NCBI GenBank assembly: GCA_029210175.1
Contig: JARGPL010000019.1
Coordinates: 186,001 to 250,000 of the forward strand
Source: Minwuia sp.
GTDB taxonomy: Bacteria > Pseudomonadota > Alphaproteobacteria > Minwuiales > Minwuiaceae
DNA: 64,000 bases
Reading direction: 5' to 3'
The notes under the pieces are model-generated. The model was not told the origin of the DNA, ran no database searches, and worked only from the letters and a program-made list of their open reading frames with translations. Below, one piece after another: positions 687-26,383 of this stretch; the first letter of the stretch is position 1; each line of letters opens with the position of its first letter. Position numbers and translations under genes: made by a program.

Positions 687-1706
687 TCAGCCCAGCGCCC
701 GGGGCGGATTGCCGCCGAGGGTTCGGATCGGGTCAATCGCCCGGCGGCCCTTGCGGATTTCGAAGTGCAGCTGCGCCGGATCGACACCACCCGTCGTGCC
801 GACTGTGGCAATCACCTGCCCGCGGGACACCTTGTCCCCCCGGTCGACGCCGATGCGGTCAAGGTGCGCATAGGCCGTTGTCAGGCCACCGGCATGGCGG
901 ATCAGGATCAGATTGCCGAAGCCCTTCAGTTCATTGCCCGCATAGACCACAGTGCCCCCATCCATCGACCGGACAGGGGTTCCGCGCGCGGCAGCGATAT
1001 TGATTCCGTCATTGTGCAGACCGCCCTGTTTCACGCCGAACCGCGACACGACCCGACCCGCCACCGGCCAGACCTTGCCGCCTGCCCCGACCGCAGGCGG
1101 GGATGATGGCCTGGCCGTGATGGGGCGATTTTCAGGCTTTGGTCCGGCGGTTGGTCGCGTCTGTGTCGCTGGCCTTGTCGACGGCCTCGTCGCTGGCTGC
1201 GATGTCGTATCTGCCCGCGCCACACGGTCAGCGGGGCGCGGCGGGGGCAAGGGCATGACCTCCTGGCCTCCCCCGGTCCGGGCGACCTGCGTTGGCGCTG
1301 AACGTCTGTTGCCACTACCTGGAATCTTCAGGATCTGATCGGGAAACAGCCGGTAGGGTTCTGCCAGATCGTTCAGGCGCGCCACATCGAAACGGCCAAC
1401 GCCATACAGCTCCGATACCGACGTCAGGCTTTCACCGCGCTGCACACGATGCAGCCGCAGATCCGGCACCCGCAACCTCTGGCCAATGGCCAGCGTGTAC
1501 GGTGCCCGCAAGCCATTGACACGGATCAGATCCCCCACGGGCACGCCGGTACGGCGGGCAATGGCATAGGCGGTATCACCGCTGCGCACCTGCACTGTCG
1601 CGCCGGTGAAACCGCTGCGGTCATCCACTGGCGCGGGGGTGCTGCGCGGCCCGCAGGCAACGAGCAGCAGGCCCAGAACGACCGCCATCAGGGAAACACG
1701 CAACAT
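687..1706 (-). CDS. nlpD: LysM/LytM (M23-like) outer-membrane lipoprotein, NlpD-type
   Basis: The protein carries a lipoprotein signal with lipobox LLVACG, two LysM repeats (starting TVQVRSGDTAYAIARRTG and LHRVQRGESLTSV), a long Pro/Arg-rich linker and a C-terminal LytM domain (VWPVAGRVVSRFG ... LHFEIR). LysM binds peptidoglycan. In the LytM domain the metal-ligand motif HxxxD reads HNDGIN, with Asn for Asp, so peptidase activity is doubtful. Like E. coli NlpD/EnvC it probably activates an amidase during septal wall splitting. Start 1706 puts the lipobox about 18 residues in. A TTG/ATG at 1790/1787 overlapping the pcm stop is also possible but gives an unusually long n-region. It is the last gene of serS-surE-pcm-nlpD, the usual position in proteobacteria. 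Confidence 0.85.
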   Translation of the reverse strand: MLRVSLMAVVLGLLLVACGPRSTPAPVDDRSGFTGATVQVRSGDTAYAIARRTGVPVGDLIRVNGLRAPYTLAIGQRLRVPDLRLHRVQRGESLTSVSELYGVGRFDVARLNDLAEPYRLFPDQILKIPGSGNRRSAPTQVARTGGGQEVMPLPPPRPADRVARADTTSQPATRPSTRPATQTRPTAGPKPENRPITARPSSPPAVGAGGKVWPVAGRVVSRFGVKQGGLHNDGINIAAARGTPVRSMDGGTVVYAGNELKGFGNLILIRHAGGLTTAYAHLDRIGVDRGDKVSRGQVIATVGTTGGVDPAQLHFEIRKGRRAIDPIRTLGGNPPRALG

Positions 1707-1786
1707 CCGGGCAGAGTAGGAATCCTGATCCCGGGGGGCAAGGCATCGTCGCCTGGTGCCAGACTGTCTGAAGGGTTCAGGCTGCA

Positions 1787-2446
1787 TCAAGGGTCGTTGC
1801 GGGGCTCGTTCGGCACACCATCCAGCAGCGGCACGAAGCGCACCGGCAACAGGTTTTCCCGCGTGGAGCTGCCATCCGCCTGCCGCGTCACCCGGATCAG
1901 CATCTGATCCGCACCACTGCGCCCCACCGGCACGATCAGGATCCCCCCGGGGGAGAGCTGGTCCACCAGTGCGCTCGGCACCTCCCCGAAGGCGGCAGCC
2001 GTGACGATGATCCGGTCGAAGGGGGCCTGTTCGGGCCAGCCCCGGGTGCCATCACCCAGATGCGCGATGATGTTGCTGAACCCCAGGCGGCTGAACAGGG
2101 TGGTCGCATCCCGATAGAGCGTGCGGTGACGCTCTATGGTGTAGATGCGTCGGCAGAGCATGGCCAGAACGGCAGCCTGATAGCCGGACCCGGTTCCGAT
2201 CTCCAGCACCTTGGCGCGGGGTACCAGACGCAGGGCCTCCGTCATGAAGGCGACGACATAGGGCTGGCTGATGGTCTGTCCCTGCTTGATCGGCAGGGGC
2301 ATGTTCTCGTAAGCCTGATGGCGGAAGTTGGCATCAACGAACTGTTCGCGCGGCACCTTCTCGATGGCGCTCAGAACCCGGGAATCGGTAATGCCCTCCC
2401 GCCGCAACTGCATCAGCAACCGGATCTTGCGCACGTCATCCGTCAT
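1787..2446 (-). CDS. pcm: Protein-L-isoaspartate O-methyltransferase
   Basis: This cytosolic repair enzyme transfers a methyl group from S-adenosylmethionine to L-isoaspartyl residues in aged proteins. The SAM-binding motif VLEIGTGSGYQAAVLA and the family segment VPREQFVDANFRHQAYENMPLPI are present, as is the later EQAPFDRIIVTAA block. At 219 aa from the ATG at 2446 it has the usual family length. That start has a weak GGTGGA site upstream. The longer frame to 2527 would overlap surE and adds a non-conserved extension. It follows surE by 40 bp and its TGA overlaps the next possible start. Pairing with surE is typical of stationary-phase survival operons. Confidence 0.95.
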   Translation of the reverse strand: MTDDVRKIRLLMQLRREGITDSRVLSAIEKVPREQFVDANFRHQAYENMPLPIKQGQTISQPYVVAFMTEALRLVPRAKVLEIGTGSGYQAAVLAMLCRRIYTIERHRTLYRDATTLFSRLGFSNIIAHLGDGTRGWPEQAPFDRIIVTAAAFGEVPSALVDQLSPGGILIVPVGRSGADQMLIRVTRQADGSSTRENLLPVRFVPLLDGVPNEPRNDP

Positions 2447-2486
2447 GCTGCCGATCCACCATGCTGCCAGACTGTCATGTGGGCAT

Positions 2487-3242
2487 TCAGTCCTGGAAAA
2501 CGCGCCCGAGCGGATCCAGCGCATCACGATCCGTCAGGTTCAGGCTGATCGGCGTCACGGAGATGCCGCCGCGCCAGATGGTGCCGATGTCGGTGCCCGG
2601 CGGCGGCATGGCCTTCTGTCTGCGCATGCCGATCCAGTAATAGGGAATGTTGCGGCCGTCGGCGCGTTCATCAATCGTCACGTCAGACTGGTCGCGGCGA
2701 CCGTGCGGCACCACGTGCACGCCGTTGACCTCATCAGGTTCCACGTCCGGATAGTTGATGTTGATCAGTACGTCCTTCGGCCAGCCGTTCACCAGCAGGC
2801 GCCGCACAATGCCCGGCGCATGCTGGACGGCGGTCTCCCACCGGATCACCTGATCGGCATAACCGATCTGGCTCATCGCGATGGACGGAATGCCGAGCAG
2901 CGTCCCCTCCATCGCCGCGGCGACCGTGCCTGAATAGGTAATGTCCTCCGCAATGTTGGCACCGCGATTGACGCCGGACAGGATCAGATCGGGCCGTCCA
3001 TCCAGCACATGCCGCACCGCCATCATCACGCAATCGGTGGGTGTCCCGCCGACGGCAAAGCGCCGGTCCCCGCGTCTGTGCAGGCGCAGCGGGTTGGACA
3101 GGCTGAGAGACCGCCCCGCGCCGCTCTGTTCCTGCTGCGGAGCCACCACCCAGACATCATCGGTCAGTTCGCCGGCGATCTTCTCCATCGCCGCCAGGCC
3201 GGGGGCATCGATGCCATCATCATTGGTCAAAAGGATACGCAT
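2487..3242 (-). CDS. surE: 5'/3'-nucleotidase SurE
   Basis: SurE is a metal-dependent nucleoside-monophosphate phosphatase linked to stationary-phase survival. The N-terminus MRILLTNDDGIDAPG contains the paired Asp residues that bind the metal. The downstream motifs SLSNPLRL, VGGTPTDCV and LSGVNRGAN are all intact. From the ATG at 3242 it has 251 aa, normal for the family. The start codon is only 4 bp after the serS stop, so the genes are probably translationally coupled. The longer reading upstream lies inside serS and is not used. Confidence 0.96.
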   Translation of the reverse strand: MRILLTNDDGIDAPGLAAMEKIAGELTDDVWVVAPQQEQSGAGRSLSLSNPLRLHRRGDRRFAVGGTPTDCVMMAVRHVLDGRPDLILSGVNRGANIAEDITYSGTVAAAMEGTLLGIPSIAMSQIGYADQVIRWETAVQHAPGIVRRLLVNGWPKDVLININYPDVEPDEVNGVHVVPHGRRDQSDVTIDERADGRNIPYYWIGMRRQKAMPPPGTDIGTIWRGGISVTPISLNLTDRDALDPLGRVFQD

Positions 3243-3246
3243 GGTT

Positions 3247-4533
3247 TCAGCCTTTCGTGGCTTTGATGACTTCAAGGCCACCCATGTAGGGACGCAGCAC
3301 GTCGGGCACGATGATCGATCCATCGGCCTGCTGGTAGTTCTCGACCACGGCAATCAACGCCCGCCCCACTGCCAGGCCCGAGCCGTTCAGCGTGTGGACG
3401 AAACGGGTCTTCTTCTCGCCCTCGGGCCGATAGCGCGCACTCATCCGCCGGGCCTGGAAATCGAGACAGTTGGAGCAGGACGAAATCTCGCGATACCGTC
3501 CCTGCCCCGGCAGCCAGACCTCCAGATCGTAGGTCTTGGTGGCGGTGAAACCCATGTCGCCGCTGCACAGCTTCATGACCCGATAGGCCAGGCCGAGACG
3601 CTGCAACAGGGCCTCGGCGCATTCCGTCATGCGTTCCAGTTCCGCGGCCGAGCTCTCGTCATCCGTGACGACCACCATCTCCACCTTCATGAACTGGTGC
3701 TGGCGGATCATGCCGCGGGTGTCACGCCCCGCCGATCCGGCTTCCGACCGGAAACAGGGGGTCAGCGCCGTCATGCGCATGGGCAAAGCCGAGGCATCAA
3801 GGATCTGTTCGCGGACCATGTTGGTCAGCGGCACCTCCGACGTGGGCACCAACCAGAAACCGTTGTCGGTATGAAACAGGTCCTCGGAGAACTTGGGCAA
3901 CTGCCCGGTACCGAACACCGCATCATCGCGCACCAGCAGGGGCGGATTGACTTCGGTGAAACCGAACTCGCCCGTCTGGACGTCCAGGAACCAGTTGGCC
4001 AGGGCACGTTCCAGCCGCGCCAGCGCACCGCGCAGCACCACGAAACGTGCGCCGGACATGGCGGCTGCACGGTCGAAGTCCATCAGACCAAGCGCCTCGC
4101 CAAGTTCGAAATGTTCCTTCACCGCAAAATCGAAGGACGGCACATCGCCCACTTCACGCACCAGCGCGTTCGCATCCTCATCCGTGCCGACGGGCACATC
4201 GGGGGCGGGAAGATTGGGAATGCCGGCAAGTTCCAGGTTCAGGGCAGCCTCGCGGGTGCGATCTTCCTCTTCCAGCCGCTGGACATCCGACTTCAGATCA
4301 GCCGTTGCCTGCATCAGGCGCTGCGCCTCTGCCTCGTCACCACTGCCCTTGGCCTTGCCGATTGCCTTCGCCGTCGCATTCCGCTCCGACTGCTTCGTCT
4401 GCATCTCCTTCTGGATGGAAAGCCGTCCCTCGTACATCTCGACAAGGGCTGCAGAGCGGGCCGCGTGCCCGCGCGCAGTCATGGCTTGGTCAAAGGCATC
4501 CCGGTTTTCCCGGATCCAGCGGATATCATGCAT
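3247..4533 (-). CDS. serS: Serine--tRNA ligase
   Basis: SerS charges tRNA-Ser (and tRNA-Sec) with serine. The 428-aa protein has the N-terminal coiled-coil arm (about residues 30-105, rich in Lys/Glu/Gln), motif 2 with [21 protein letters not shown], and the C-terminal motif 3 region [19 protein letters not shown]. Length and start ([10 protein letters not shown]) match the family. It is the first gene of the minus-strand serS-surE-pcm-nlpD operon. Its promoter should lie in the 138-bp gap shared with the divergent hydrolase gene at 4672. Confidence 0.98.
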
Positions 4534-20397: not shown

Positions 20398-20496
20398 GAT
20401 GAACTCCCCATTCTCCCAAAAAAATCCGCTCAACACATCGCAGGTCCGTGACAGGTGCCGGCCCGTGTCGTGAAAGGCCGGCGCGGCCGGAGCCGT

Positions 20497-21363
20497 TCAG
20501 CCCCGAAACAGCCGCGTCAGTTCAGGCACGTAGGCGTCACCCTGCCCCGCAGATGCCTGCGCCCCCATGGCGGCAGAGACACCATCCGCAATGGCACGGC
20601 TTCCCGCCCCCGCGCCCGCCATCTCCCGATAATAGTCGATGTCCTTTGTTGCGTTTCCGATGGTGAAAGGCACATCGCTGGCGTCGCCCGTCAGGATGCA
20701 TTTCCGCAGCCGTTCCAGCGCCATCCCGGCGCCACCCCCCCTGGCCAGCACATCGACGAAGACCTGCGGGTCCACCCCCGCCTCCGCGGCCTGCGCCGCA
20801 GCCTCCGCCAGCAGCGCCATATGGCCGATGGACACGAAGTTGTGCAGCAGCTTCATGCGGTGTCCGAAGCCGACGCCGCCGACATGGTCGATATTCTCGG
20901 TGAAGGTATCCAGCACCGGTCGGGCCGCTTCCAGTACATCGGCCTCCCCGCCGACGAGTATGTTCAACGTCCCCTCATGCGCCTGCTTTGCCAGCCGTGT
21001 CATCGGCGCATCGAGAAACCGCCCCCCGGCCTCCATCACCATCGCCGCCATGCGCTCGGTCGATTCCGGCAGCGCGGTGGAACAGTCCACCACGATGGTT
21101 CCGGGCTTCAGCGCGGCGATCACTCCCGCCTCCCCTGTCAGCACCGCCTCCACCTGCGGCGAACCCGTGACGCAGAGGATCACCAGATCGACCGCCGCCG
21201 CAACGGCTCCGGGCGTGCCGCGCTGCTCCGCCCCCATCCCGATCAGATCATCGACCGGCTGGTTGCCGCGATGGTCCAGCATGATCACCGGGAACCCGCC
21301 CTTGAGCACATTCAGGGCGATCCCGTGGCCCATCAGCCCCACACCGATTATCCCGACTTGCAT
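20497..21363 (-). CDS. NAD(P)-dependent oxidoreductase, 3-hydroxyisobutyrate dehydrogenase family
   Basis: The N-terminus MQVGIIGVGLMGHGIALNVL is the Rossmann dinucleotide site of the beta-hydroxyacid dehydrogenase family. The substrate-binding motif DAPMTR and the catalytic-Lys block GHRMKLLHNFVSIG are present, followed by the all-helical C-terminal domain. At 288 aa it is of normal length. Such enzymes oxidise short beta-hydroxyacids or reduce semialdehydes. The exact substrate cannot be told. A second paralogue lies at 48848-49672. It follows on the strand upstream of the SnoaL-like gene with a 100-bp gap. Confidence 0.9.
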   Translation of the reverse strand: MQVGIIGVGLMGHGIALNVLKGGFPVIMLDHRGNQPVDDLIGMGAEQRGTPGAVAAAVDLVILCVTGSPQVEAVLTGEAGVIAALKPGTIVVDCSTALPESTERMAAMVMEAGGRFLDAPMTRLAKQAHEGTLNILVGGEADVLEAARPVLDTFTENIDHVGGVGFGHRMKLLHNFVSIGHMALLAEAAAQAAEAGVDPQVFVDVLARGGGAGMALERLRKCILTGDASDVPFTIGNATKDIDYYREMAGAGAGSRAIADGVSAAMGAQASAGQGDAYVPELTRLFRG

Positions 21364-21622
21364 GACCCGTTCCTCCCCCTGTCAACGCCGCTGCCCCTGA
21401 ATGTAGCCGAGCGATCTGCCCGCACGCCAGCACAGCGGCACCGGCTGTGCGTCGCCAGGGGTTGTTTGCGGCGACTGGCGCAGCGCGGCAGACTCGCCAC
21501 CTGCATGAGGGCCTTTTCCAGCGACAGCGAGAGAGATAGTAAAGGACGGCATCGGGCGTTAACGGTTCAGATGGCAATATGATGCAGGCTCAATCCAGGA
21601 ACGTGACGGCAGGGCGGGTTTC

Positions 21623-22276
21623 ATGAAACATCTGATCAGGGTCATGCTGATCCTGGGGTCGATCTTTGCCGCCGTCTTCGTCGCGGGCCACCTGCTGGGC
21701 ATCCTGACCACCGACAATGTTCGCAGCTGGCTGGAACAGGCGCAGTCCATCGACCCGCTCTGGGTCGCCGGACTGGTTGTTGCCCTGTTGTTCATCGACC
21801 TGTTCATCACCGTGCCAACCCTGACCCTGACGATCCTGGCAGGCTTCTTCCTGGGCTTTCCGGCAGGCGCGTCAGCCGCATTTGTCGGTGTCACGTCGGC
21901 AGCGTTCGGTGGCTATTGCATCAGCCGACGATGGGGCGACCCGGCGATCCGGCTCATCCTGAAGGAAGAAGTGGCGCGCGAAGAATTTGCCGCCGCCTTT
22001 CGCAGCAATGGCCCGGTCATGATCATGCTCTCGCGGGCCTTGCCCATGCTGCCGGAAATCACCGCCTGCATGGCCGGTGTCACCCGCATGCCGCCGCTGA
22101 GATATGCGGCATTCTTCCTGATCGGCAATCTGCCCTACATTCTGGTGGCCGCCTATGCGGGGTCGGTCAGTTCCCTCGAGGCCCCGCAACCGGCCATCTA
22201 CACCGCGCTGGTGCTCTACGGAATTCTCTGGACGGGTTGGTATTTCCTCCGCCGACGCAGGGTTGCCGCGCGATAG
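21623..22276 (+). CDS. TVP38/TMEM64 (VTT/DedA-like) membrane protein
   Basis: The 217-aa protein has five to six hydrophobic segments and the VTT-domain signature: TVPTLTLTILAGFFLGFPAGASAAFVG followed by the loop block FRSNGPVMIMLSRALPMLPEITACMAGVTRMPPLRYA. It ends with a basic tail (FLRRRRVAAR). DedA/VTT proteins act in membrane lipid scrambling or transport and membrane homeostasis; a role here is inferred only from family. About 260 bp upstream, to the divergent dehydrogenase, hold the promoter. No other gene was seen there. Confidence 0.88.
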   Translation: MKHLIRVMLILGSIFAAVFVAGHLLGILTTDNVRSWLEQAQSIDPLWVAGLVVALLFIDLFITVPTLTLTILAGFFLGFPAGASAAFVGVTSAAFGGYCISRRWGDPAIRLILKEEVAREEFAAAFRSNGPVMIMLSRALPMLPEITACMAGVTRMPPLRYAAFFLIGNLPYILVAAYAGSVSSLEAPQPAIYTALVLYGILWTGWYFLRRRRVAAR

Positions 22277-22291
22277 CCGGAGCATGCGTGG

Positions 22292-22354
22292 TCGGCCGCA
22301 GTGCTTCGCGGACGGCCTCATGTCTCTGGTCTGACCCGCTGAACGGATCAGACG
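22292..22354. repeat. Structured intergenic repeat, copy A
   Basis: This 63-bp segment between two convergent genes matches copy B at 26391-26456. Both contain GACGGCCTC-N-TGTCTCT followed by CCCG-Y-TGAACGG-R-TCAG. Copy A can form two hairpins: GGCCGC with GCGG/GGCC, and GTCTGA with TCAGAC around the CCG/CGG stem. No T-tract follows, so it is not an obvious intrinsic terminator. Confidence 0.65.
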
Positions 22355-22415
22355 CCAACGGTTACAGGAAACCTGCAGGGGTCACAGTCGAGGTGGAATG
22401 TCGTCCTGATACGGC

Positions 22416-23468: not shown

Positions 23469-24287
23469 GCTTGAACTCCTGCTGTTTTGCTGATGCGAAA
23501 AGCATAGGCAGGAAATTTGTGCGGCGCAACATGTGGTCCCCGTTCCGCAAAATTATCCACGAATTCTAGAGCACTAATTGAATTTCCGAAAAAATGGGAT
23601 CAATTTCTTCATGAATACTTCTATGTATAGAATTCTTTATATTTTGAATTCATGGCCGTTTCCACTATTTCAAATATATCAAATAATTTTTCTACGCATA
23701 AATCGAATTATGGTGTCTCAAATTCCTAATCTGAAATTCAAACAACCAAATCACGGAAAATTCCCTGCATGTCATCGTTCATACTGCGGGTCACTTATTA
23801 CAGGAACATGCAAAATATGGCGACTGTCTGCCAAGAATTTCCGGTCCGACAGGTATCAGGCATGATATGATATTGTGATCATGCCCAACCCGTTCTTTTC
23901 AGAATGCTGGAACATACAGAAAAATGCCACCTGCAGTCTTCCGTTGATTGCTCGTGTTCGCCGCGTGACCTGATGTCGGGTCAGCACGACCGGTCTGCAC
24001 GGCGTTCTGACCGACCGGCTCCGTCGCTTGATCCAGGCACCTGAGTCCGCGCCCAGCGCCACCACACGCATCTTCCTGCCGCTGGGTTTCACTCTGGTGG
24101 CGGTGATCGTTCTTCTGGTGACGACAAAGCCGTTTTGAGCGAAGTTGGTTGCGGTTGGCCGAATTAACGAGACAGGTCGTGCCGCCGACGGAAATGCACG
24201 CCGAGACTTCCAGACGATCCGGGGACATATGCAGGCCGGGTGTCACGGGCCACCGACGCATCAAGATATTTTCGGCCAGTACGGGAA
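23469..24287. other. 820-bp gap: AT-rich tract and gene fragments
   Basis: About 23560-23790 is AT-rich, and a 95-codon plus-strand ORF there has no RBS or family pattern, so it is not called. At about 23975-24138 the plus strand reads LRRLIQAPESAPSATTRIF then LPLGFTLVAVIVLLVTTKPF and stops. This is a probable C-terminal fragment ending in a membrane helix, without a start codon. A near-match DnaA box (TTATCCACG) lies at 23553-23561 as a single copy. The gap looks like decayed DNA. Confidence 0.5.
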
Positions 24288-24320
24288 GCGGCCATCCATT
24301 GGTTTCTCAAGGATGGCCGC
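24288..24320 (-). terminator. Stem-loop after the HupE-module operon
   Basis: A perfect 10-bp inverted repeat (GCGGCCATCC / GGATGGCCGC) with a 13-nt loop lies 10 bp beyond the stop of the last gene of the minus-strand operon. There is no U-tract, so it is either a Rho-assisted end or an RNA 3'-stabilising stem. Confidence 0.5.
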
Positions 24321-24329
24321 CCGTACATA

Positions 24330-24944
24330 TCACTTGCTCCGAACGATACCTTCGTACTGACCACGCAGTTTGAGTATCACTGTCACGTCAGCCTTGTCCC
24401 GGTTGCGCCAGAACCAGCCATGTTCTCCGGCAAACGGAGCCTTGATGCTGCCTTCACCGGAAGTCGCGCCACGGCCCCGCTCGTAATCAACCGATTGACC
24501 GTTGGCATGGGCGTGCAGATCGAAATTGACCCGGCCGCCTGTCGCCGTCCAAGCATATGCAAGTACGGCTCCTTCCTTCATTACGGCCTTTGTTTCGACC
24601 CCTTCTCCGGGTGTCAGGGTAAATTTGACCTCGTCTTTCCAAGCCTCCTGCGCCTGCGCCGTTGAAAGGAACATGCCGAGTACGGAATCCACCAATGTCC
24701 ATTCCTGATGATCACCGTACATGGAGTGATCTGCCTTCGCTTCTGACTCCAGTTGTTGCTTGATTTCACCCATTTCAGTGAGACCGAGGACCCGGCCCAC
24801 GCCTGTGGGGTCGATAGCATATTCCGCAGGCAGGACGACCGTTGTGATGATCGCTGCTGCCACGACAACCGCGACAAGGGCCGAGCGCATTAACCTGGCC
24901 GGGCTGGGAAGGTCTTCGAATTTGGGTTGAGGTACATTGTGCAT
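24330..24944 (-). CDS. Single-pass membrane-anchored protein of the HupE module
   Basis: The 204-aa product has a short cytosolic start (MHNVPQPKFEDLPSP), one membrane helix (LVAVVVAAAIITTVVLP), and a periplasmic domain containing WKDEVKFTLTPGEGVETKAV, AYAWTATGGRVNFDLHAHA and AGEHGWFWRNRDKADVTV. This matches what databases call a transmembrane anchor protein next to HupE/UreJ; the function is not established. The ATG at 24944 is preferred because GGAGATCAAG precedes it and it clears the hupE stop by 16 bp. Upstream ATGs at 24974 and 24980 overlap hupE. The HxH and W-rich region could bind a metal or contact the transporter. Confidence 0.75.
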   Translation of the reverse strand: MHNVPQPKFEDLPSPARLMRSALVAVVVAAAIITTVVLPAEYAIDPTGVGRVLGLTEMGEIKQQLESEAKADHSMYGDHQEWTLVDSVLGMFLSTAQAQEAWKDEVKFTLTPGEGVETKAVMKEGAVLAYAWTATGGRVNFDLHAHANGQSVDYERGRGATSGEGSIKAPFAGEHGWFWRNRDKADVTVILKLRGQYEGIVRSK

Positions 24945-24960
24945 CTTGATCTCCAGTTTA

Positions 24961-25704
24961 TCAGGTGTGGCCATGGCCAAAGAATCCAGCCAGTTGCTGG
25001 CCGATCAGCAGCACGCCGAGAAACACCATCACGATATTCGCAACGGTGGCCTGTCGCATGAAATTCGGGCTTCTCCGCCAGTACCCCATGACGATCAGGA
25101 TTACTGCAAGGGCAAGGATCTGCCCAACCTCGACGCCCACGTTGAAAGCAATCAGGTTGGCGAGAAGACCATCCTCGGCAATCCGGTACTCCAGTATCTT
25201 GGACGCGAGTCCGGTGCCGTGGAACAGACCGAAGACAAGCGTCGCTGCCTTGGTGTTTGGCTGAAACCCGAGCCATTTCTGGTAATAGCCAAGGTTGTCG
25301 AGCGCCTTGTAGACGACCGAAAATCCAATGATTGCGTCGATCAGGTAGGCGTTTATGCCCCAGCCATACCAGACACCCAAAAGCATGGTGATGGAGTGAC
25401 CAACAGCGAAGAGGCTGACATAGATCGCGACATCTTTCATGTAGTACAGAAAGAAAACGACCCCCAGAAGGAACAGGATATGGTCATACCCTGTCATCAT
25501 GTGTTTCGCGCCAAGATAAATGAATGAGATGATGTGCACCCCATAAATTTCCTGGATATAGCCAGCGTCACCAGGCGTTACATTGTGGGCATTGGCCGTA
25601 GTTGCCAAAGCAAGAAGAGTAATCAGGGCAGCAGCGCCAAGCATCAAGTGACGACGCACATGTTGCGACGCACCCCCTGATCCGAAAGATCGGTTGTTCA
25701 TCAT
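24961..25704 (-). CDS. HupE/UreJ-type membrane protein, probable metal permease
   Basis: The protein begins with a cleavable signal (LITLLALATTANAHN) and has about six further hydrophobic helices. Family motifs include LGAKHMMTGYDHILFLLGV, VGHSITMLL, and VFGLFHGTGLAS, whose His and Asp residues are placed inside membrane segments as in nickel/cobalt permeases of the HupE/UreJ group. The C-terminus is GFFGHGHT. Adjacent ATGs at 25704 and 25701 follow GGAAACAACAG. It lies between a His-rich secreted protein and a membrane-anchored protein, which supports metal uptake or sensing. Whether the metal is Ni, Co, Zn or Cu is not evident. Confidence 0.82.
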   Translation of the reverse strand: MMNNRSFGSGGASQHVRRHLMLGAAALITLLALATTANAHNVTPGDAGYIQEIYGVHIISFIYLGAKHMMTGYDHILFLLGVVFFLYYMKDVAIYVSLFAVGHSITMLLGVWYGWGINAYLIDAIIGFSVVYKALDNLGYYQKWLGFQPNTKAATLVFGLFHGTGLASKILEYRIAEDGLLANLIAFNVGVEVGQILALAVILIVMGYWRRSPNFMRQATVANIVMVFLGVLLIGQQLAGFFGHGHT

Positions 25705-25763
25705 TCTGTTGTTTCCGCATATTTGAAGAGTGTGAATTTCTGCGCCCGCAAGGACGCACGGCA

Positions 25764-26108
25764 TCACACGCGCGGCGGTCGGTCCCGAAGGTATCCACTG
25801 TGGTCAATCATGCGATCGCTATTGGATACCCATCCTGCGCGTGTGATCAGAAACGCAAGCGAACTCGCTCTCTGTCGCAGGTAGGCAAAGTTATGATCGT
25901 GATCCACCAAGTCGTGTGCATGTCCATAATAGGCATGCATCAAATCGACCTGTTCGTCATGAGAGTGGTCGTGGGAGTCTGCTTCGTTGTCGTGCTCAGC
26001 AACAACTTCTGACATCACCAGGAAATCATGTGCCAGTATTCGGGAGTTGGCAGACAGGATCATGCCCATCGCCAGAGACATGATCAGACACGATCTGAAA
26101 AGTTTCAT
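25764..26108 (-). CDS. His-rich secreted protein, probable metal binder
   Basis: The 114-aa product starts with a signal peptide (FRSCLIMSLAMGMILSANSRILA). Within the next 45 residues it carries a dense set of His and acidic residues (EHDNEADSHDHSHDE, YYGHAHDLVDHDH), 11 His in all. This is typical of periplasmic metal-capturing proteins, although no named family is recognised. ATG at 26108 is chosen since it begins the hydrophobic region; a TTG at 26132 would add eight residues. It is first in the operon leading to the HupE-like gene 59 bp downstream. The 365 bp up to ilvC contain no obvious metal-repressor palindrome. Confidence 0.65.
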   Translation of the reverse strand: MKLFRSCLIMSLAMGMILSANSRILAHDFLVMSEVVAEHDNEADSHDHSHDEQVDLMHAYYGHAHDLVDHDHNFAYLRQRASSLAFLITRAGWVSNSDRMIDHSGYLRDRPPRV

Positions 26109-26383
26109 GATTTCAGAAAATTTACGGTCCAACCCAGGATGTCTTTCGCGGTCTGTAACAGATGGATCGTGACAACGAACCGTCCGTCGAGCGTCCGTCA
26201 GGGACGATCTCGACAGAACATGTATATCAACGACAGAAGGGGCGGAAAAGAATGAAATCGAGAACGATCCAGCCCCCAGTCACTCCCTGATTTCCCTGAC
26301 GCCGAAGGATGCCACTGCAAGCCCCAAAATTCTCTTAACAAGCGCTTGAAGCATCCTGGTCACATCGGGTTCACGGACAGGGG

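Follow-up and report, generated by a model that had tools for sequence, protein, structure and literature searches.

A conserved three-gene set around a HupE/UreJ-type permease in Minwuia sp., possibly an accessory nickel/cobalt resistance cassette acquired alone

Three adjacent genes lie on the minus strand of the window, by which we mean the whole 64,000-nucleotide stretch of Minwuia sp. DNA analysed here, and, as described in the first-pass annotation, they are separated by small gaps (59 and 16 bp), all three open reading frames being intact. The locus comprises the following features:

25764 to 26108, minus strand: His-rich, putatively secreted protein, an open reading frame of 114 aa with 11 His and a C-terminal RPPR motif.
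24961 to 25704, minus strand: HupE/UreJ-2 permease (HupE) of 247 aa, assigned by PF13795 (E=3e-52), alignments and an AlphaFold2 model; the aligned motifs are a His after the presumed signal peptide, HX5DH, GHS, FHGxGL and GVExGQ.
24330 to 24944, minus strand: single-pass anchor protein of 204 aa with a predicted periplasmic GOLD-like beta domain.
24288 to 24320, minus strand: inverted repeat GCGGCCATCC / GGATGGCCGC, 3' of the anchor gene and without a T-run, recognised by eye.
23534 to 26367, no strand assigned: low-GC segment carrying the trio, delimited by blastn against the congeners G001 and G003.

The coordinates of HupE are counted from its likely ATG, the open reading frame itself opening at 25767 (268 aa), and the His-rich protein has an alternative TTG start at 26132. 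Position 24288, at which the module had earlier been made to end, is the end of the inverted repeat 3' of the anchor gene, a feature not listed in the repeat scan. The N-terminus of the His-rich protein is hydrophobic and was assigned by eye as a putative signal peptide, which agrees with its earlier description as a secreted protein with 11 His. Likewise, the proposed likeness of the second gene product to HupE/UreJ permeases is borne out by its only convincing Pfam match, PF13795 (HupE_UreJ_2), at 176.9 bits against a curated cut-off of 24.5; the other Pfam HupE_UreJ family, presumably PF04955, is absent among its Pfam matches at E<=1. The HupE family is known for import, and HX5DH is a HupE motif. 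The AlphaFold2 model of HupE (mean pLDDT 82.6) gave no useful match to a solved structure, the best Z being 8.6. For the anchor and His-rich proteins, neither Pfam nor NCBIfam gave a match at E<=1. The anchor, previously read as a single-pass anchored periplasmic protein, is modelled (mean pLDDT 88.1) with one transmembrane helix at residues 15-42 and a periplasmic beta domain at 104-203. In the structure comparison this model aligned with the p24 GOLD domain 5azw_B (Z 13.2, rmsd 1.5, 88 aligned residues), the top rows being p24 GOLD, and the predicted domain thus appears to resemble a GOLD-like beta-sandwich. Its identity as an Ang-1 domain was considered and found no support, 9GCE being absent among the matches listed, though some likeness may exist.

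In order to place the trio among its relatives, a profile built from an 11-sequence HupE alignment was searched in genome contigs and the best 80 of at least 592 loci were kept; these are the nearest relatives of HupE and not a random sample. In 79 of these best 80 loci an anchor gene begins no more than 700 bp from the hupE stop, the sole exception (L048) being a contig that ends 99 bp past hupE. A His-rich open reading frame, defined by composition, is found 5' of hupE in 64 of the best 80, compared with 15 of 247 control positions to which that rule was applied, and in 54 of the 80 it also matches a profile of 12 aligned homologues. Seeded instead with the anchor, the search recovered this gene in 29 of the 385 genomes of the class. 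Of 30 such loci, 27 contain hupE; L138 and L145 are situated at the edge of a contig, L140 is devoid of hupE, and L139 overlaps L146. Independent searches of 72,556 plasmid records found HupE on 442 and the anchor on 391, of which Klebsiella and Enterobacter together contribute 203 and 202, respectively. The HupE and anchor records are nearly equal in number in Klebsiella (148 and 147), Enterobacter (55 and 55), Pseudosulfitobacter (31 and 31), Acinetobacter (21 and 21) and Pseudomonas (15 and 15). Sinorhizobium (19) and Rhizobium (17) are prominent only in the HupE list, and among four of their rows that were sampled three were distant (26-29%) and one stood at 67%. The co-occurrence of the three families, proposed earlier as a check on the module, is therefore found, and the trio is a conserved, recurring bacterial gene set.

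The conservation extends to individual residues. Among the best 80 of at least 592 loci, HupE has a His after the presumed signal peptide in 79, directly after A-x-A in 64, and this His is separated from HX5DH by 28 residues in 79 of 79; GHS is present in 78, FHG-x-GL in 65 and FN-x-GVE-x-GQ in all 80. In the anchor, Asn140 and His144 are invariant and Asp142 and His175 nearly so, and these four residues form a possible metal site. P-P-R is invariant in 12 of 12 aligned His-rich homologues. The C-terminal (D/E/K)-(R/K)PPR-like motif (25767-25784 in the window) is kept even though the homologues are only 18-46% identical to the window protein. The window copy retains the family-invariant residues.

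The neighbourhood of the relatives is mostly that of metal resistance. Within 6 kb of the trio, a gene for a CsoR/RcnR-family repressor is found in 53 of the best 80 loci (upstream and divergent in 48), an NreB-like MFS gene in 47 and ncrC in 8; RND and CDF genes occur in 10 and 11 of the 80, respectively, and at least one of these partners in 65. Between the repressor gene and the His-rich gene of relatives lies a palindrome such as CTATCCCCCTGGAGGGGATA. It was scored against TATCCYC-N5-GRGGATA, a match being at least 12 of 14 positions, with shuffles that preserve base composition alone giving a mean best score of 9.7. By this measure, an NreA-type operator is present in 50 of the 53 repressor-linked loci and in 2 of the other 27 of this best-80 set, namely in none of 9 pump-only loci and in 2 of 18 with neither partner. 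In Mesorhizobium, the NreA operator has the consensus TATCCYCtccrgGRGGATA and nickel relieves the repression by NreA, according to the accessible part of that report (PMC12724321). The arrangement varies among replicons: in Paracoccus, Agrobacterium and Pseudosulfitobacter plasmids MFS and repressor genes are divergent from a hypothetical-HupE-anchor run, in Acinetobacter RND genes, a small open reading frame with 18 His, HupE, the next gene, MFS and YqaA follow one another in a single run, and in Klebsiella ncrABC has the trio some 5 kb upstream. In Pseudovibrio (L074) the trio comes after the genes for a PF02583 regulator and a CDF protein. A YqaA/DedA-like membrane gene occurs in 17 of the best 80 trio loci, and on Acinetobacter and Sphingomonas plasmids (L167, L168) such a gene adjoins the MFS gene. 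In Sphingobium sp. ba1, the available text of an RNA-seq study reports that a HupE/UreJ gene within an nreB and RND cluster was the most up-regulated at 10 mM Ni (PMC5557971). Because of the operator, the NreB-like pumps and this induction, we associate the trio with an excess of nickel or cobalt and not with their limitation, the link being probably to nickel rather than to cobalt or copper.

The copy in the window stands apart from this arrangement. About 2.8 kb containing the trio separate the aligned ilvC and O-methyltransferase segments, which in the congeners G001 and G003 are approximately 330 and 360 bp apart, the trio insertion being absent by blastn. G002 and G004 are uninformative on this point, since no methyltransferase match is found in the sequence retrieved beyond ilvC. 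The GC content of the trio genes is 0.53-0.57 compared with 0.627 for the window, the window genome has a single anchor gene, and a trio is also present in the congener G006, at a different site and between other genes. The window trio thus probably arrived horizontally. No transposase was recognised at the ends of the insertion, and one inverted pair has an arm at its left edge (23504-23535) and the partner inside hupE. A plus-strand fragment at 23974-24135 was considered as an M56 peptidase tail and rejected, having only a weak UPF0093 match. Downstream of the methyltransferase, the region 20410-22390 (a hydroxyacid-dehydrogenase-like open reading frame and a VTT-domain gene) also has no blastn match in the corresponding part of G001 and G003, and this region may consequently be an insertion hot spot. 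The VTT-domain gene is not supported as a YqaA/DedA partner (27-29% identity over 42-47 aa).

The regulatory parts seen in relatives were not detected here. A PF02583 repressor had no match in the window genome under a search positive in 6 of 14 control genomes, and an NreB-like MFS pump, the one pump type covered by the whole-genome search, had none where 7 of 8 genomes searched together were positive. The statement on NreB-like pumps is limited to the window genome, since two other genomes with a repressor-free trio (G006 and G023) carry NreB-like genes elsewhere. Upstream of the window operon, the best operator score was 9 of 14, level with shuffles, and a relic operator is rejected. Likewise, in a comparison with composition-only shuffles, in which the NreA motif was the one taken from a paper, no Zur, NikR, RcnR, DmeR, CueR or Fur/RirA site surpassed the shuffles; the search for Zur and NikR sites, suggested earlier as a check in relatives, gave nothing upstream of the window operon. 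Expression of the window trio would be constitutive or driven by an unrelated promoter.

Repressor-free trios are not peculiar to Minwuia. Orphan loci were defined by a repressor HMM score of at most 60 and no MFS or NcrC match within 6 kb, a class of 18 that takes in L074 despite its PF02583 regulator and CDF gene and in which 4 have less than 2.5 kb of flank on one side. A PF02583 gene is wholly absent from 11 of 15 orphan-trio genomes. On a HupE tree of 56 rows, with L005 left out and L074 not counted as orphan, the 17 repressor-free rows need 15 changes of state against a mean of 14.8 for shuffled labels, and the well-supported branches force at least 9; a single clade of repressor-free trios is not supported. 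As the scatter of these rows and the genomes without PF02583 show, the switch has been lost or is missing repeatedly. Beside the trio of G023, two open reading frames (7932-10450 of L161, minus strand) resemble by eye a restriction-modification pair, which would fit a mobile setting.

Taken with the context in relatives, the reading that we hold to be moderately probable is that the trio is an accessory nickel/cobalt resistance cassette, in this genome horizontally acquired alone. We infer that HupE would transport Ni2+, Co2+ or both through the inner membrane, most probably in the outward direction, along a path that may involve the mature N-terminal His, HX5DH, His124, His183 and Glu213 (numbering of the 268-aa open reading frame). 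The His-rich protein may buffer periplasmic metal, and the anchored GOLD-like protein could dock on the permease and either hand the metal on or block its re-entry. A nickel permease working in efflux has an example in NcrC, as reported in the accessible part of PMC8545094. Several observations stand against a resistance cassette. The HupE family has a reputation for import, which PMC12537917 also states, and fused relatives are proposed importers; moreover, no resistance partner was recognised in 15 of the best 80 of at least 592 loci, the gene downstream of hupE in the Manganitrophus relative (40.5% identity) is a different one, and copper genes lie near some copies. In Enterobacter, a 9-kb deletion gave the same nickel MIC as deletion of ncrABC alone, as far as the part of that study available to us describes it (PMC8545094), and if the 9-kb region includes the trio, this set adds little to nickel resistance. 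Nevertheless, protection against excess metal is the more likely function of the window trio over the gathering of scarce metal.

The opposite direction, capture and import, is rather unlikely. Here the His-rich protein and the N-terminal His would fish Ni, Cu or Co from the periplasm for inward transport by the permease, for instance to supply urease, and HX5DH, as a HupE motif, is in keeping with it. It is also favoured by PF13795 kin with an N-terminal His, which bind both Cu2+ and Ni2+ and for which import has been proposed (PMC12537917), and by the urease encoded on another contig of the window genome. However, most relatives among the best 80 have a nickel-repressor-type operator and efflux neighbours, the window genome already has a fused-type HupE, and urease does not track the orphan trios: strong matches occur in 9 of 15 orphan genomes and 12 of 15 repressor-linked ones, or in 12 and 12 by a tally of E-values. 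A NiFe-hydrogenase large subunit was not found in the window genome, and the genes read at about 20.4-30 kb fit the earlier statement that no hydrogenase or urease genes are nearby. A role of the trio in serving either enzyme was considered and finds no support in its neighbourhood, and urease failed to separate orphan from linked trios. The first-pass annotation of a metal capture and import module thus holds in part: the set is compact, co-occurring and little described, and its permease is apart from hydrogenase and urease genes, but import of scarce metal is disfavoured by the repressor or efflux neighbours in 65 of the best 80 of at least 592 loci, by the NreA-type operator and by the nickel induction that the available Sphingobium text reports. 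The suggested measurement of expression under metal limitation points the wrong way, because the context of the relatives is nickel/cobalt excess.

A third explanation, sequestration, which we consider improbable, has the trio keep metal in a bound and harmless state, either at the inner membrane or within the periplasm, with no net export. It was suggested for the HupE/UreJ protein of Sphingobium by its authors, who remarked, in the accessible portion of their paper, that the induction may be counterintuitive for a permease (PMC5557971), and the presence of a His-rich partner in 64 of the best 80 of at least 592 loci agrees with it. On the other hand, a polytopic permease with conserved polar residues would be superfluous for binding alone, and 16 of these best 80 have no His-rich gene by the composition rule. 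That the window copy is a stray, non-functional insertion is very unlikely. Such a view could draw on the missing upstream operator, on a genome in which neither a repressor nor an NreB-like pump was detected, and on two congeners that have no counterpart. Against it stand the three open frames, the retained family-invariant residues and the recurrence of repressor-free trios across the tree, 11 of 15 such genomes being without PF02583.

Returning to the resistance cassette, its parts and context are of known kinds. The nre and ncr systems (nreAXY of Mesorhizobium, ncrABCY of Leptospirillum and Enterobacterales, nreB of Achromobacter) share with the trios of relatives the repressor family, the operator type and the pumps, but the genes of the trio are not among ncrABC nor, as far as seen, nreAXY, and the window copy differs in having no operator and a genome with no detected repressor or NreB-like pump. 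HupE/UreJ permeases of hydrogenase or urease clusters are polytopic and have an HX5DH-type motif like HupE of the trio, which is not adjoined by such genes. The Cnr/Ncc-type RND cluster of Sphingobium sp. ba1, nickel-induced, combines HupE/UreJ, nreB, an NreA-type repressor and a small protein that is 10% His, a likeness drawn from the published description (PMC5557971), whereas the window trio stands alone. Anglerases, described in 2025, are fusions of Ang-1 and HupE/UreJ-2 whose N-terminal domain binds Cu2+ (Kd 74 nM) and Ni2+ (220 nM) and for which their authors propose a role in import (PMC12537917). They share a PF13795 permease with HupE of the trio, and HupE, given its presumed signal peptide, may also resemble them in having a His right after that peptide; they differ in their fused beta-sandwich domain, in place of which HupE has the 28 residues between His and HX5DH, and in their DUF4198 context, in contrast to the resistance context and the separate His-rich and GOLD-like partners of the trio. 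Both forms coexist in the window genome, since contig C4 (L018) encodes an anglerase-like locus, with a fused-looking HupE/UreJ-2 of 382 aa (1432-2580, minus strand), whose long N-terminal part starts with His-Glu behind a presumed signal peptide; a DUF4198 gene (2597-3424, plus strand) is divergent from it.

From these comparisons we tentatively put forward a combined reading, doubtful as a whole, in which the trio would be a self-standing Ni/Co detoxification machine. A relative of the HupE "importers" would act in it as an exporter, the mature N-terminal His, the His-rich carrier and the tethered GOLD-like domain would replace the fused domain of anglerases, and the set would work without a CsoR/RcnR-type sensor. 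The repressor-free trio, with its short His-headed HupE and separate partners, was not found described as a unit in the open-licence literature, the nearest mention being the HupE/UreJ gene noted in the accessible text of the RNA-seq study (PMC5557971). A member of a presumed nickel-importer family placed behind a nickel-excess repressor is a paradox, and the direction of transport by the trio bears on the direction assumed for PF13795 proteins and for anglerases.
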